Below, piece by piece: positions 32,373 through 46,033 of a stretch of 64,000 nucleotides of DNA. The number at the start of each line of letters is the position of its first letter. The first letter of the stretch is position 1. The position numbers were made by a program, and so were the translations under genes. The stretch is from Arthrinium phaeospermum (lineage: Eukaryota > Ascomycota > Sordariomycetes > Amphisphaeriales > Apiosporaceae), in assembly GCA_006503535.1 (NCBI GenBank), contig QYRS01000006.1, positions 2,914,001 through 2,978,000 on the forward strand, in the 5' to 3' direction. The notes under the pieces were generated by a model. The model did not search any database, was not told the origin of the DNA, and was given only the letters and a program-made list of their open reading frames with translations.

Positions 32373-32380
32373 TATATAAG
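32373..32380 (+). promoter_or_regulatory. TATA box of the secreted repeat-protein gene
   Basis: TATATAAG lies 164 bp upstream of the ATG at 32544, a sensible distance for a fungal gene with a 5' untranslated region of about 130 nt. A strong TATA element often marks inducible genes. Confidence 0.6.
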
Positions 32381-32543: not shown

Positions 32544-34153
32544 ATGCTGAGCAACATCCTACTTGCTGCGGGTCTCGCGCCCGCCATCTTGGCGAAGCCT
32601 ATCCAGTAAGCCCCCCAACCTGCCTTATAATGTAGTTTGTCTACTAACCCATATGTAGGCACCGCCGGCGGATGGACAACCTGACGGAGACTGCAACCTC
32701 GACCGAGCCCGAGCCTGAGTTCACCGCTGTACTCGACATGCCCCAGAAGCGAGCTCGCGGTCCTAAATCCATGTCAACTTCAGTCCCCACCTCTTCGACC
32801 GACGATTTCATCATCTACGGGTCGGATCTTCCCACCCAGTCGGAGTTTTTGAGCGTACCGACCATCACGATGCGTCGGAGCCGCACCCTGACAGTCCCGC
32901 TCTCCGTGGAAACCGACGATGGCCTCGAGCTGCCGACCAAAAAGCGGGCGGTAGGTATCCCCAGCCTGACCAGTGACCTTGTTCTGCCCACTGTCACGGA
33001 TGTTATCCTTCCGTCGGTCACGGTTACTGATAACTTGCCCCTGGAAACCGACGACCTCGACCCAGACCTCCTTTTTATGCATAAGCGTGCTATGGACCTG
33101 CCTTCGGTGACCACCGACGACTTGGACTTGCCCACGGAGACGGATGGTCTCCTGCCTTCTCTTACGCTGACGGATGACATCCCACTTGAGACCGACGATC
33201 TCGACCTCGGCTTGATGAAGAAGCGCTCCATTGTCGTTCCTTCGGTGACGGATGACTTGGACCTGCCTACGATGACAGCTAGCATCTTGCGTTCACTCAC
33301 GCTGTCGGAGGATCTCCCGCTTGAGACCGAAGATCTTGACCTCGATTTCATGAACAAGCGCGCCGCACTCAGCGTCACCGACGACATGCTCCTGCCCACC
33401 GAAACCGACAGCTTTGTCCTGCCTTCTCTTACTGTTTCTGTCACGGACCTGCCGCTGGAGACCGACGACCTCGACCTCCCTCTCGATACCGAGGAGAAGC
33501 GCGACATGATGAGAAACCGTCCCTCGAGCACGTCCAGCAGCCACTCCAAGAGCCACTCCAGCAGTCACTCCAGCAGTCACTCCAGCAGTCACTCCAGCAG
33601 CCGCTCTTTGCCTTCCCCGACCATCTCTCTTCTGGATCTGCCGCAAGAGACCGACGACCTCGACCTCCCCTTCGACACCGAGGAGAAGCGCGACGTGATG
33701 AACCACCGCCCCACGCACTCGCTCAGCCGGTTCCCCGTCGTCGTCCCCAGCGCGACCCACCTCTTCCCCTCCTCTTCGAACATCCTGCCTCTCCCGGTCG
33801 AGACGGCGATCGACCCGGACCTCGACTTCGCCATGCACAAGAACAAGCGCCAGGAGGAGGAAGAAGAGGAGTTCGCCGCCAAGCTGGCCAAGCCCACCAA
33901 GCCGACCCTGTCCTTGCCCACCGCTTCGAAGGTCCCGACGCCATCGGTGTCCGGTGTCGTCCTCCCCAAGCCGTCCGTGACGGAGCCCCCGCAGGTGCAC
34001 GACCACTGCAGCGACTGCGGCACCAAGTGCGCTGCCGCGAAGGACGTGGCCGGGATCCTCAAGTGCGTCCAGGACTGCGTCGCGCATTGCCTCTCTCACC
34101 TGCCGACCCAGACGGGCAGCGTCGTGGTCAACTCGCTGTCCATGTCCAAGTAG
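32544..34153 (+). CDS. secreted Kex2-processed repeat protein (KEP-like precursor)
   Basis: Exons 32544-32605 and 32659-34153 (donor GTAAGC, branch ACTAAC, acceptor TAG) give 518 residues. Residues 1-17 are a signal peptide (MLSNILLAAGLAPAILA). Dibasic sites of Kex2 type occur at residues 51-52, 116-117, 163-164, 209-210, 254-255, 301-302, 364-365 and 417-418, plus an RR at 93-94. Between 116 and 302 they are spaced 45-47 residues apart. Most repeats carry a Pro-Ser-(Leu/Val)-Thr block, then PLETDDLDL, then the cleavage site. The sixth repeat contains a His/Ser-rich insertion (SHSS units). After the last site come a Glu tract, a Pro/Lys/Ser linker and a six-Cys tail (C471, C474, C478, C490, C494, C498). 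Cleavage in the Golgi would release several acidic peptides of about 45 residues. I know of fungal KEP precursors and repellents with this architecture, but the peptide sequences match none I recognise. Confidence 0.85.
33542..33601 (+). repeat. in-frame 12-bp minisatellite, five units (SHSS)
   Basis: The unit CACTCCAGCAGT and close variants repeat five times within the coding sequence of the secreted precursor, encoding His-Ser-Ser-Ser units. The 12-bp period keeps the frame, so unit gain or loss is tolerated. Only one repeat of the protein carries this insertion. Confidence 0.92.
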
Positions 34154-37100
34154 ACACAATAGCAAGCAGCAGCAGCCGTCACCACTCTTTCGCTTGTCAT
34201 CGCATAGCAGCAGAAGCGGCAGCGGCAGCAAGGAGGGGGAAAGGAGGAGGAGAAGGAGAAGAAAAAGGACGTTTCATTGTTGTTCCGAGACCAGTATCTT
34301 GCGGGGTTTCTGCTGGCCGGGGGTATAGGGGGGTATCGAAAGAGGAGATCCGGGCGGCCTGCCGCTTCATCTCGTCTCCTCAGCGGGAATCGCCCCTGCC
34401 AGGGCGGTTTCAGGGTCGCTCACGGTCGCTGTCGTTCACTGACGAGTGCTAGGTATAGGGAATGGGGGGTTTGGAGGGACGGGTTGGTAATGGGGTCACG
34501 ATTATGGTTTACGCGTCCATGTTATGAGAGACGGGAGTTTGGTTCGTTTCATTGATGGCGAGACGCATGATAGAGGTTGATAGATTAGTTTCTTTCCCTC
34601 GAGCTACACACGCCAACAGCTCGAGTTCGCAATCGACACTCGTTTTAGTTCTTGGGCATTCGTCTCTTGATTCGGCTGCTATGGACCTGCTGTTCTACTG
34701 TTGCGATGCTGTTCCTTTCGTGGCTCGTGGGGAACATGGATGCCGGGGCAAATGCCTGCTAGCATCCATGATGCAGCAGTTCTGTCCATGGAAGACTTGC
34801 CCGCCCCGTGAGTCTCCCATGGAAAGGGTCACTCGGGGTGCATACCCGCGACCCGCTCAGAATCACGTAACAGCAGGGACTTATTGGATGATGAACATAA
34901 GTCTAAAAATGAGATGTCACGTAGAACAAAGGCAGGAACACGCTGTAAGGCAAGGTGCGGTGCCTTGCTTGGTTCAGAGCGCATGCAACAAACACACACT
35001 ATTGCCGTTGGTCCACGTTCAGTGTCCACCGCCCATATCCATTCCCAACGCCAGGACCCGTTTGGAGATGCAGGAACGCGCCCTGAACTGCAGATCATCG
35101 AGAGCCAAGACGTTTTGAGTTTACCGCGGCATCACGACACTCAGCCGCCGGTTGGTTGGCGGAGATATCAAAAAAGAAAGCCGTACCCTCGGTGTTGGTC
35201 GCCTCCTTGCAGCTGCTGTACGGACGGATGCGTTGGCACGATTAGAGATGAGAAATGAGAAAGAATATGGGCCAGAACGCGGAGGCGGCCCAACAAAAAG
35301 GGCGATCGGCCTCAAAACGTACAACGCAAGGCACGTGAACAACGATTTTGGTTCCCAACCCCGTTCGAGGTCGGCCGAGCTGAGGTGTTGACAGCGGCGA
35401 CGGCTACCTCTTTTGGGGCCATTGCTATTTTTGAAGCCATAACATGTTGCAGTCCAGATGCATCTGGAATGCTTGAGCTGACGAGAAAGCATGGGTCTCG
35501 AGCCTCGCGGGCGGCTCCAGGCCCCATACTTATCATACATGTGCCAGGTGCCTGACGGTCAGTGGAGTTGGAGCTGAACTGATAGACTCTAGAGGCTCCA
35601 TCCAAACTCGGGGCGGCCAGGGGGCCCAGATTGCCGTCGGTCTTCTTTTTGCGCAAACCTCGGTTTGAATATAGTATGTAGTAGCATGCGGAACTTCCGG
35701 CTTCCAGGGAGTCCATCAATGTATCCAGCCCAGCACGACTTGATCTAGCCGGGGGATTGGAGAATCCAGACAATTTAGACTTGAGGGTTCCAAGATCTGC
35801 GATACGGAGGAAACAGAAAAAAAGCGCCTAATTGAATTTTTCTTCTTCTTCTTTAGTCGTTGGAGCGCTGGAAAACAGGGCCGGTCCCTGCGAGCCTGCT
35901 TGGGCCGAATGCGACGGGCGCGTAGAAAGGAGAATCAGGTCCTTGTTAAGGTGTTGGTTCGGCGCTGTAGATCCTGGTGGGCGGCTTTTTGGGTCTTGCA
36001 GGGTGCTGGGTTACTGCTAAGGACTTTTTCCTACGGTAGTGTGGTGCCATCCGATAATCATCAATCAATTGTTTGTCGCTTCAGTCGCCTAGACATGCCC
36101 ATCTCACTCTCCTAGGTATTGCACATGGAACGAATACGGCCGTTTAGCCCGGAGAGCAGCATGCCATTGCCAACTCACAATGCACATTCTCCATGTTGCT
36201 TATCCAATTCAATATACTTGAGGTAATACTAGCAAACGCTGCTTTTGGGCCCCATCCAAATTAATCTACTCAATGGGTATTCTAGAAGGAAGGGGGAAAA
36301 GAAGCAGAAAAAAAAGCAACATAATTATGCTATTAGTACACTCCGGAGTTAAGGCCAGCTCAGAGAGCTCCGCAAAGGGTTCGGTTTTGGTTTGTTTCAG
36401 TCCTCAGGTAGCATCACGACACAGCCATGCTGCTCGTTCCATACAGGTGCGTCCACTGGAAGCGGGGTCCAGATTGGTTGAAGGGGAATTACCAGGCTCT
36501 GATCCTCCGATACTCCTGTCTTCTGTCAAGCTCCTGTCCCCTTTTTCGGAGCGAGTGCGGAGATGTGTATATTAATTGGACTCCTATTCTGCAAACATAA
36601 TTGCGATGATTGATTATTTAGTGGCCATTGAAACAAAACTCTTGCTGTACAATTGAGAAAAGATATGGAGGCTAGAAACTGGAGTTATGAGCTCATCGTA
36701 TATTACCCTGGCCATTGCAGCCTGAAGCCGGTTGGCGGCCATTTGGCTCCGCACGTCACACGGTGCTTGACAGGTGTAGGCGCGCCGCAAGCCTATCGTC
36801 ATACAGTCTGAAGTCGGGCCCCCAAGCACTGTAACCCTATCAACTAGGGGCGTCGGCGGGCCTTACTGAATACGACGAAGAAAAAGCTTGGAAGTGTCGG
36901 CTAAGCGAGGAAACGCTGCACAAACACTCGTGTCCATGACGAGTTGCTTCTTTTGCGCGTGTGAATCAGGCGATTCACTCGACTGGCTGACTGTTTTGTT
37001 TTGCGACGTTGAACAAACATGTCAGAATCTGTACATTCTGGCTGTCGCAACATCATACTGAGGACCAAAGACTAGCGTCCCCTCCTCCTCTTTGACTTGT

Positions 37101-42482: not shown

Positions 42483-44241
42483 TCAGGCTTCTTCCATCAA
42501 CAACCTTGCCATTTCTTGCGATCTGACCTTGACCACACATTCGAACGGCAAAGGATGCCTGCGGTGGGCCGAAGGGAAATAAAAGTCAGCCAATCAATCG
42601 CTTCATCAGGTAGGCAGGTAGGTGAAGGTGTTTCTCGTCAAAGGCATCGGTTGACTTACCCTCCTAAACCAACGGTGACTCCCGGCTCCGGGATCTTGGG
42701 TTTCCCATCGTCGTCCAGGGCAGGTTCGAGCTCGAAGGCGGCCAGGAAGGTGGCCAGGAACATGTAGACGCTTGCGAGGGCGAGCCAGTTCCCGGGACAC
42801 TTCCGTCGGCCGAATCCGAAATTCCCAAGCGGGTAGGGCTCGCCGCGGTCATAGCGGCCCGGGTCGAAGACGAGAGGGTCCTTGTACGTGCCAGGATCCG
42901 TGGCCATGGCTGTGGTGTTGGTGAGCACCATGGTGCCCGCAGGAATGAACATGCCCCTGTACACGTCGTCGCGCAGACTCTTGTGCGGGATGTTCAGCGG
43001 GTTCAGCGGCAGGCATCTCATCGTCTCCATGATGAAGTCGTCGAGACATTTCAGCTCGCCGCGATCGCCAAAATCTGGTAAGCGTGCTTCGCCCTTTGAA
43101 CAGAGTACTATGTCAAGTTTGCCCTGGATTGCCCGCTGGACCTCGGGATGCCTGGTCAGAAATAACATGCAGGAGAGTATGGTAGCCCACGTGGTGTTTC
43201 CCCCAGCAATGATGACAGCCCCCGTGGCCCCCTTTATGTCTGCCAGGCTCGTTCCATGCGGTCTGCCTGCTTTGGAGTCCGCGACGAAACGGTCCCAATG
43301 TATTTTCATGAAGGACGATGGTGCAGTATCTGTTTTTATGGCCCTCATATTGGCATCCCAGGGCTGGTCGTGGATTGCCTGTATGGCCGTTCGGCTCGTT
43401 CGGGCATGGCGCAAAGCCGACGAAGGATTGAGCCAGTCGGGAACATACCGGATAGGTGGAAATATATCGACAAGACTTGTTCCTGCTATGCCACCAGCGG
43501 TAGTTGCCTCGCTTGCTGCTTTGGTCATCTCGCAGTACGGAGAGCTCTCGCTAGGGACCTCTTGACCAAATGCTATCCGGAAAATGATGCTCGTTGTCAT
43601 CAGAAGGGTAGAATTCCTCCAGCTATCCGGTCCTTTGATGAGAGACCGGGCGGCTTTTCGGCTTTCCTGTAGCTGCATCGGGTGAAACATTCCGACATTG
43701 GAGCGAGAAAAGGTGCTCTGGAACATTTTTCGATGAAGCTTGAACTGATCGCCCCATTTCAGGAACGTCAAAGTACGACCCCAGCCCATGCTTATGATAT
43801 GCGTTAGACCACGCCAAGAGATTCACGTTTGTGCAACAGCAACTTACATTTCGAACAGGGTGAAATCTGGTCTGTCACAATAGTTGGCTCCCCGCTGGTC
43901 AAGCAACTCGGTCGCAGCAACGGCGCTGTTTAATACGATTATAGGTTGGCCGAGCATCTTGACATAAATCACATCCGAATCTTATCAGGAGACGGTCAGC
44001 AGCCGTATCGACTAGGCACGATGGCGTATCTCTACTCACTGAATTCCACACCCCATCGCAAATAATCCCTTTCTGGGTGATCAGCGCTGACCTGACCTAG
44101 GTTCCCTATGAAAAGTCTTCCTGATGGCCCAGGTGGTAACGGGTAAGGGTTTCTCTTTCCGAACCTGCTTTTCCACAGGATGAAGATCGCCAGCGCTGCG
44201 AAGAGTACCGCGCCTATGAGACCGTGTATTTGGGAATCCAT
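42483..44241 (-). CDS. cytochrome P450 monooxygenase
   Basis: Four exons: 44241-44040, 43980-43848, 43790-42660 and 42558-42483, all with GT-AG ends (donors GTGAGT, GTAAGT, GTAAGT). The product is 513 residues. An N-terminal membrane anchor (about 7-23, GLIGAVLFAALAIFILW) is followed by the proline-rich hinge PYPLPPGPSG. The I-helix is IIAGGNTTWAT (A307-T312), with Asn where most P450s have Asp or Glu. The K-helix ExxR is ETMR (367-370). The heme loop is FGFGRRKCPGN with the ligand C443. The fourth exon supplies the usual C-terminus (LPFECVVKVRSQEM), without which the protein would stop early. It is a microsomal class II (E-class group I) fungal P450; substrate unknown. A Zn2Cys6 regulator is divergently placed 1.8 kb away. 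Confidence 0.92.
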
Positions 44242-44334
44242 CTTATCGTAAGGCAAGGGATCAAGTGATTTCGGGGTGCAGTACTGAGAAATACCGGAAT
44301 GGTCCTGAGAACACAGAAGAGGTTCTGTGAAAGA

Positions 44335-44342
44335 TATAAATA
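44335..44342 (-). promoter_or_regulatory. TATA-like element upstream of the P450 gene
   Basis: Read on the minus strand this is TATTTATA, about 95 bp upstream of the P450 start codon. Confidence 0.35.
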
Positions 44343-44370
44343 TGTCCTTTTTGAGAAGCACAGGCTGATT

Positions 44371-44420
44371 ATCGCAAACACAAAGCTTCTCACAAACACA
44401 GGGGCTCTCACAAATACAGG
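44371..44420. repeat. imperfect ~18-bp direct repeats upstream of the P450 gene
   Basis: Three related units follow one another: GCAAACACAAAGCTT, CTCACAAACACAGGGGCT and CTCACAAATACAGG. The shared core is CACAAAYACAGG. They lie 130-180 bp upstream of the P450 start, just beyond the TATA-like element, a position where activator sites would be expected. Confidence 0.55.
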
Positions 44421-46033
44421 ATGGCAGGGCAAGCGACCCGTCGAGGGATCCCGACACGGGAAAGCGATCCAAATATGATCTTTGGTCCAGCCCAGGAGTC
44501 CGTGGCCACAGCGTTTCATCCTCCAGGATAGCCTGACGTCGGTCATGGAATTTCCTGCGAAGCCCCCACATGGGGTATCCTGTGCCGATTATCTTCCATG
44601 ATGGGGGCTCCTGAGTAGGGAGATGAGCCGAATGGACAACTGCCTGGACAATTGCCAACTGTCTCGCAAACACAATTGGAGGGATGAATGCTGTGAAACT
44701 CTGGCTAGATCAAGGTGGGAATATTCGGATCCTATCACGGCATCAGGTTGCGGGGGAAGAGGTGCCGACCCCTATTATCCCAATAGTCTTGGCCTGAGAT
44801 GGGCCGATGAAGGGATGGGAGCGTCGACGTGGATGGCAGACAACCAAAGGCATAATGAAACCGGTGAGGTGGAAATCTTCACCAATTATGCTGACAAGTA
44901 TAGGGAATTGCGAAATCTTGCAGCCAAGGTTACCATGAACTGGAACTCTAAGGCATGTTTGTCTGGCTTGGCTTGGATTTGCGTGTAGTCGGTAGCGGAA
45001 GAGGACCTCAGGCGACTGGAGACAGTCCATTAAGTGGAAGAATGGCATGCAAAGGTCACATTGTCGATTACTATATGCAAGTCTGTGGTTGGAGTCTGCT
45101 ATAATCCAACCAGTGATGGACTGCAGCCACGGGCTGATCCGTGACGAATTGCCCATGGCAAGTCGAGACAGTGGGCATGAAGAAAGCAGTTGCCGGCGCG
45201 GCAATGCAAGATTGGTGAGGTTGCCGGGGGCTTGTAAGCCACACGCAACACCTGATCGATATCGATTCCTGGGCTTTGCACTCACGACGGACGGGAGAAA
45301 TCATTGGACAGAAAACTGGGGTTGATGCTGACGGCCCCCCCTCAACATCGATTCCTCCCAGCCGGCCGTTCCTCCAGAATGCGGCGGCTGCCCAAGCCCA
45401 GCCATGTCACGTTTATGTTTACGGGCAAGGGATCAGTCTATTGCGCATGGGGTAAGCACAGCTATTCAGCAAGCACAGCAGCCTATCAGCCGAGCAATCA
45501 AGCAATCACATCAGGTAGATACGTAGGGCCGCAACCATCTGGCCGGGCCGACACACAACACACCACCTACCCCCCTTGCATGTCAATCAATAACCGTAAG
45601 GATCTTTTGATTGAACTATGCGCACCGAGCTCCAACGCCAAACTGCGAAACGACTGCCGATTTCGAAGAGTTGGGGGCACTCTGCTGCATCCGTCGACTG
45701 CGTGGGTATTGCTATAACTCCACCATTTCCCTTGGAACCCTCTCTTGACCGGGCTCAGCTCTATCTGCATCATCGGGTGCGAATGTGGGGAAATCTGGCC
45801 ATCGTAGCCTGCTGACCGAACGCCTTACATCAAGACTTGGAGGCCGCAGGTGGGCAAACAAGTGAGCTGGCGTGGTACCATCGTCTTGGAAGCAGCACCG
45901 ACTGGTTCCGATCGTTACCTTGGTCACATTGCCGGATCAATCAAGTTTGCCGGCAGGGCACTTTACACTCCATCCGGCAACACCAGGTGCTTGCCCGGCA
46001 GGCTAGAGAACTGCCGCCTACCACTCGTGCGCC

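Follow-up and report, generated by a model that had tools for sequence, protein, structure and literature searches.

A putative Kex2-processed repeat precursor of Arthrinium phaeospermum with conserved segments near both ends and a predicted six-cysteine hairpin

The gene described here encodes a protein whose best-conserved parts are a FIIYG...PTITM-RR box near the N-terminus and a six-cysteine module at the C-terminus, not its acidic repeats. Neither the box, as best-conserved part, nor the cysteine module appeared in the original prediction, which had proposed a precursor releasing several acidic peptides. Judging from sequence, we rate the gene as a Kex2-processed repeat protein (KEP) in which a predicted hairpin module accompanies unique, conserved segments toward either end. 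It lies on contig C6 of a 48.4-Mb, 19-contig genome, within a window (the whole stretch of DNA analyzed, 64,000 nucleotides) spanning positions 2914001-2978000.

The coordinates first proposed for the gene, 32544-34153, proved exact, with the ATG at 32544 and the stop codon ending at 34153. Two exons, the first of 62 nt, and one intron give a spliced product of 518 aa (Table 1). The Apiospora marii record P0001 has the same N-terminus, with identical residues across the splice junction. The putative signal peptide is the hydrophobic leader MLSNILLAAGLAPAILA, whose extent (residues 1-18) was set by judgement; it is the same in P0001 and altered in P0005. Its best 19-aa Kyte-Doolittle mean is 1.56, at residue 2; after the leader the 19-aa hydropathy tops out at 1.21, and no other stretch equals the leader. 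Also, the C-terminal SVVVNSLSMSK was judged unlike a GPI-type tail. Direct reading located TATATAAG upstream of the ATG, at 32373-32380. A purine-rich AAGGAGGAGGAG tract (window 34230-34269) was seen just 3' of the stop codon and likely sits in the 3' UTR. Two long open frames on the minus strand, 32815-33564 and 33293-34273 (249 and 326 aa), run antisense to the repeat region, and are probably a by-product of the repeat codons.

Table 1. Features of the precursor gene and its product (coordinates are those of the window).
Feature	Residues	Coordinates	Strand	Remarks
Exon 1		32544..32605	+	start codon and hydrophobic leader, then KPI and start of Q21
Intron, 53 nt		32606..32658	+	GTAAGC donor, CTAAC branch-like box, TAG acceptor
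Exon 2	21 (last base) to 518, plus stop	32659..34153	+	
KR site	51-52	32747..32752	+	P1 Arg in 5/5 rows with letters; 2/7 rows lack the region
Conserved N-terminal box	67-117	32795..32947	+	STDDFIIYG..LP..SE....PTITM-RR-SRTLTVPL...KKR; 32 invariant columns
RR site	93-94	32873..32878	+	kept in 7/7
KR site (KKR here)	116-117	32942..32947	+	KR in 7/7
Acidic repeat R1	118-164	32948..33088	+	ends KR
Acidic repeat R2	165-210	33089..33226	+	ends KKR
Acidic repeat R3	211-255	33227..33361	+	ends KR
Acidic repeat R4	256-302	33362..33502	+	ends EEKR; KR 7/7
Unit R5	303-365	33503..33691	+	Ser/His-rich stretch and PQETDDLDL box, ends EEKR; KR 7/7
Unit R6	366-418	33692..33850	+	degenerate box, ends KR; KR 7/7
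C-terminal fragment past last KR	419-518	33851..34150	+	E-rich and P/K-rich linker, then Cys module
Six-cysteine module	456-503	33962..34105	+	CX2CX3CX11CX3CX3C, predicted helical hairpin; six Cys in 7/7

Where about eight KR sites had been claimed, eight were counted; 10,000 residue shuffles gave 0.92 on average and never more than 6. Cutting at KR would yield pieces of 52, 65, 47, 46, 45, 47, 63, 53, and 100 aa. In a seven-row alignment of the window protein with all six relatives, the KR sites at 117, 302, 365, and 418 and the RR at 94 are kept in every row. The P1 Arg is invariant at all 8 KR sites (5 to 7 rows with letters), whereas among 8 isolated Arg at other positions 2 are invariant (Fisher p 0.0035). 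Arg in HRRR and MRR are excluded from this count, and with related rows the p-value is a guide only. At P2 the sites drift, with K replaced once by R, three times by E, and once by H. Kex2 is described as accepting almost exclusively Arg at P1, with aliphatic P4 preferred and Asp at P3 unfavourable, and as tolerating other residues at P2, Glu included; His is absent from the five P2 alternatives listed in that description (PMC8528282). By these preferences, the LDER words found in P0005 and P0006 match the extended LxxR motif, with a poor P3. For the protease itself, one P_proprotein match was found in the genome, on contig C4, in a frame that also holds a full subtilase domain (Peptidase_S8). 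From the conservation of the sites we infer that the precursor would be cleaved by Kex2.

Successive KR-to-KR units of 47, 46, 45, and 47 aa bear out the four units at 45-47-residue spacing that had been reported. The best off-diagonal 40-aa self-match of the protein contains 27 identities, whereas 200 shuffles averaged 11.8 and never exceeded 16. Pairwise protein identity among R1-R4 is 58-67% (MAFFT), and together these repeats account for 185 of 518 residues. An acidic box had been said to precede most cleavage sites; indeed, the strict form P[LQ]ET[DE]DLD precedes 5 of the 8 KR sites, degenerate boxes precede two further ones (residues 105-112 and 401-411, direct reading), and none stands before the KR at 52. 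The claim of almost no aromatic residues holds for the four repeats (3 F/W/Y in 185 residues, without Tyr), but not for the N-terminal box: F and Y occur there in the present protein, and 5 of the 7 sequences have a W as well.

Between repeat copies, silent divergence (pooled pS 0.62) is far above replacement divergence (pooled pN 0.25), values drawn from six non-independent R1-R4 pairs of 43-45 codons each, one of which has a pS beyond correction. This excess indicates that selection maintains the protein, and the pattern therefore points to an old array under protein-level selection, with no recent DNA expansion. The one clear simple tandem that Tandem Repeats Finder reported in the gene has a 12-nt unit in 5.7 copies and corresponds to the Ser/His stretch (33533-33600); two further rows, of about two copies each, scored low.

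KEPs occur widely among fungi, with functions described as largely unknown (PMC9769878). Under the Le Marquer definition, KR/RR cutting leaves four or more fragments of at least two aa, and there is no transmembrane segment. The protein agrees with this: after residue 18, cutting would give 12 fragments, 11 of them with two or more aa, the C-terminal one included, and the 19-aa hydropathy past the leader stays at or below 1.21. The same survey asks for three or more similar fragments that make up 15% or more of the protein; R1-R4 supply these, with similarity judged here by MAFFT whereas Le Marquer used FIMO (PMC6339444). The lengths of R1-R4 agree with the definition given by Umemura, in which three or more tandem repeats of 8-100 aa lie between Kex2 sites (PMC7329392); the comparison covers unit lengths, where that survey also used a 40-aa seed score. 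Both surveys define the signal peptide by SignalP; the leader is present in P0001, altered in P0005, and absent in the gene models of the other four relatives. As far as examined, the KEP-like organization originally proposed is thus consistent with the numeric definitions of both surveys, and our rating follows from this agreement together with the precedent of Hum3 for long repeats with a Cys-rich end.

Like the KEPs of Le Marquer (2019) and Umemura (2020), whose size classes include 25-50 aa, this precursor has a leader and three or more similar units set off by dibasic sites, and its distribution is at genus level. It differs from them in its imperfect repeats, in the conserved unique segments near both ends and in the six-Cys module. 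Most KEP types are reported to have been found in one genus only, and DUF3328 neighbours to occur in 22% of KEPs (Umemura, PMC7329392); a genus-restricted KEP without UstYa is therefore the common case.

Six related proteins were found, with identity down to 46%, and all four named ones belong to Apiospora. The best is an A. marii hypothetical protein, with 88% identity at 100% query coverage; A. saccharicola (two records, P0003 and P0004) and A. arundinis supply the remaining named relatives. Judged by this one protein, the source is most likely an Apiospora species (Sordariomycetes, Amphisphaeriales, Apiosporaceae). The main protein search scored the 7,988 candidates sharing most words, and two further searches of 31 and 62 candidates missed most known relatives. 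With candidate sets of this size, genus restriction means that nothing else was found, and a distant relative may exist. In the genome itself, repeat-block, C-terminal and N-terminal queries for paralogues returned this gene alone, bar one match on contig C3. That C-terminal match (E 0.069, 76-aa frame) was dropped, as 6 overlapping ORFs of 60 aa or more held no comparable six-Cys frame. The models of P0002, P0003, P0004, and P0006 begin inside the exon 2 equivalent; we consider it likely that their first exons were missed, which would conceal such copies from secretome screens, KEP surveys for example.

Across the seven rows, residues 67-117 and 456-503 each reach a mean pair identity of 0.82 without gaps. 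The corresponding values are 0.69-0.74 for R1-R4, 0.74 for the R5 box, 0.73 for R6, and 0.34-0.60 for the linkers; among the rows having them, the leader reaches 0.75 and residues 19-52 reach 0.81 (gap fractions 0.59 and 0.41). Over residues 118-302, which comprise R1-R4, invariant columns number 84 of 185 when gaps are ignored. The KR count in the six relatives varies from 4 to 10, P0006 having 4, together with a middle block of 168 aa free of internal KR or RR, which stays whole if its LDER sites are uncut. Also, P0003 and P0004 are identical save for one clean 47-residue segment, one unit long and carrying one KR, which reflects either a difference in copy number or an intron wrongly called in one of the two models. 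Several discrete acidic peptides of about 45 aa had been expected as the main product. The Kex2-type repeat layout of that proposal stands, but the variable KR number and the uninterrupted block of P0006 weaken the case for discrete peptides as the main product. Given this variable count and the drifting sites, how many acidic peptides are released, and where exactly they end, would matter less than the two conserved segments, and with a varying repeat number these peptides may be bulk rather than precise signals.

The six-cysteine module contains a twin CX3C, C474-X3-C478-X11-C490-X3-C494, which is present in 7/7 sequences and fits the alpha-hairpinin twin motif. Of the 497 residues in the AlphaFold2 model, 30 have a pLDDT of 70 or more, and every ten-residue block above 70 lies in this module; when it was modelled alone, 31 of 63 residues attained that level, with a core at pLDDT 84-88. 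The top PDB sequence match of the window piece is nigellin-1.1 (PDB 2NB2, E 0.015), which is also top for the six-row profile (E 0.0063) and for the most divergent relative (E 0.014), as well as in Foldseek (probability 0.98, rmsd 1.7, E 0.4). Nigellin-1.1 was not matched up to E 10 by three Cys-fixed scrambles, whose best matches were other proteins (E 0.59, 0.17, and 0.7). For the P0006 piece, the second sequence match is TIM8, with a twin CX3C (E 0.17); GABA receptor chains rank next, the first of them at E 0.79. A VIA comparison of the C-terminal model placed unrelated helical chains level with or above hairpinins, which counts against the hairpinin reading. The resemblance to nigellin-1.1 is weak.

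With the plant alpha-hairpinins, among which nigellin-1.1 is nearest, the module shares a predicted hairpin with twin CX3C and an 11-residue loop. Of its six Cys, five align with nigellin-1.1, which also has a D-x-A-G-x3-C element in common with the window sequence; plant hairpinins also come from larger precursors. It differs in being fungal, in its first spacing (CX2C and not CX3C), in a similarity near E 0.01, and in unrelated precursor repeats. The commonest plant 6C motif, CX3CX3CX10CX3CX3C, is absent here, where the first spacing is X2 and the loop X11; loops of 9-13 residues are described as the favoured alpha-hairpinin class (PMC11591084). Lys482, four residues past Cys478, is invariant in 7/7 sequences. 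In plant hairpinin trypsin inhibitors, the P1 Arg is described four residues after a Cys (C11/R15, C15/R19, C17/R21; PMC7191063). Pfam gave a single match on the protein, DUF7614 at E 0.018, short of its cut-off and judged to be chance, and NCBIfam none up to E 1 for the exon-2 protein, P0006 or the 63-aa piece. In the open-access literature searched, we found no paper pairing hairpinins with fungal effectors or Kex2, nor Arthrinium with Kex2. We propose only tentatively, and at a low probability, that the C-terminal part is a fungal mini-protein of alpha-hairpinin type, a scaffold that the literature consulted treats as a family of plant defence peptides. Arisen by convergence or acquisition, it would be cut by Kex2 from the repeat precursor and would serve to inhibit serine proteases of the trypsin type or to affect other microbes.

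We give an even chance to the explanation that the gene encodes a secreted, Kex2-processed precursor with the folded hairpin as its active part and the acidic repeats as carrier or coat, and a smaller one to any specific activity. The leader would bring the precursor into the ER for secretion, and the single kexin found in the genome would cut it in the Golgi after the KR/RR sites. Three kinds of product may result: a conserved linear N-terminal peptide around STDDFIIYGSDLPTQSEFLSVPTITM, with a peptide of ~20-23 aa behind it; a variable number of ~45-aa acidic, Thr/Pro-rich, disordered peptides; and the C-terminal fragment, whose six Cys would fold it into a small disulfide-braced helical hairpin. 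In our judgement, these products would act extracellularly, where the fungus touches its host or other microbes. The folded active part would be the hairpin, built on a protease-inhibitor/antimicrobial hairpinin scaffold. The acidic repeats would serve as a soluble carrier or coat that can expand, not as precise signals.

Another reading takes the gene for a surface protein like Repellent or Hum3 of Ustilago maydis, in which repeat peptides of 31-55 aa freed by Kex2 would assemble on the wall of the hypha, with the Cys module as counterpart of the hydrophobin domain of Hum3. The layout is indeed that described for Rep1, with Kex2 sites and 12 repeats of 34-55 aa, and for Hum3, in which 17 repeats of 31-36 aa stand before a hydrophobin domain; in both, the repeats are long, imperfect and bounded by Kex2 sites (PMC4617103). 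Repeat number also differs among the relatives of our protein. However, the Rep1 and Hum3 repeats are described as amphipathic (PMC4617103), whereas the helical (100 degrees) and strand (170 degrees) moments of R1-R4 are not clearly above shuffles, the lowest share of shuffles reaching the observed moment being 0.258 (R4, 170 degrees). The net charge of R1-R4 is -6 to -10, Pfam finds no hydrophobin in the protein at E 0.1, and four class II hydrophobin matches lie elsewhere in the genome. Compared by description, the present precursor thus has acidic repeats and a predicted helical hairpin instead of a hydrophobin, and comes from another phylum. We hold this surface role to be unlikely.

Equally improbable, in our estimation, is an uncleaved, secreted O-mannosylated mucin-like or shielding protein resembling Rsp3 of U. 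maydis, the KR dipeptides being mostly incidental. The P-x-x-T element occurs in three or four copies per R1-R4 unit, 8-10 residues apart where adjacent, and 25 P..T motifs are present in the whole protein, versus 5.3 in shuffles. The low-confidence, disordered-looking AlphaFold2 model also fits such a protein, as do the mere 4 KR retained by P0006. Rsp3 is described as a secreted repeat effector with a Cys-rich region and repeat-length polymorphism, predicted to be unprocessed within its repeats (PMC5923269), although PMC7329392 describes these repeats as Kex2-cleaved; its Cys region stands ahead of the repeats, unlike here. Against incidental dipeptides are the P1 Arg conserved at every KR site and the four KR and one RR kept in all seven sequences.

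A dikaritin-type RiPP, with the aromatic FIIYG segment as core cyclised by a distant UstYa protein, seems very improbable. The FIIYG box is highly conserved and UstYa proteins exist in the genome (24 exon matches), but none of these matches lies on contig C6, the segment is single and unrepeated, and the four acidic repeats lack Tyr. The UstYa profile (PF11807, DUF3328) was searched over the whole genome at E up to 0.001, with 27 candidates scored, and the outcome agrees with the earlier statement that there is no UstYa-type neighbour. We reject the dikaritin reading for want of a UstYa match on the contig, and the poor fit to dikaritin RiPPs originally noted is upheld, the gene being supported as a Kex2 repeat precursor outside the UstYa class. 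The 24 matches are spread over C1, C2, C4, C5, C7, C8, C9, C10, C12, and C13, and possibly mark dikaritin-type clusters elsewhere in the genome. Fungal-RiPP regions have been called by antiSMASH in Apiospora, in passages that make no mention of Kex2 (PMC12202052).

In the window, which holds 34 ORFs of 200 aa or more, nine other large ORFs were run against Pfam and eight matched: a HAD hydrolase, a choline kinase, a DUF3433 protein, a Sec2-type protein, a P450, an importin beta, an isopropylmalate synthase-type enzyme, and a ferric reductase-type protein. Ten nearby ORFs, of 30 listed, gave no Pfam match at E 0.1, and no biosynthetic cluster around the gene was apparent among the scanned ORFs. 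The cytochrome P450 (window 42656-44709, minus strand) lies about 8.5 kb from the precursor gene. Its Pfam match falls on 42656-43822, and a membrane-anchor-like start followed by a PLPPGP stretch is found in the frame 44032-44709; it seems to be split across at least two exons.

Finally, a chance low-complexity open frame, for which the overlapping long antisense frames might speak, is already refuted by the six protein relatives and opposed by the excess of pS over pN among the repeats and by the leader and splice junction kept in P0001, leaving this reading with practically no probability.

For the Kex2-processed precursor with a folded hairpin, conserved ends and an expandable middle amount to a division of labour that makes the importance of each product testable. 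If the hairpin is real, a scaffold resembling those of plant defence would be housed inside a fungal secreted precursor. Apiospora species are described in bamboo as saprobes, pathogens or endophytes (PMC12586400), and such a hairpin peptide could act at the plant interface.
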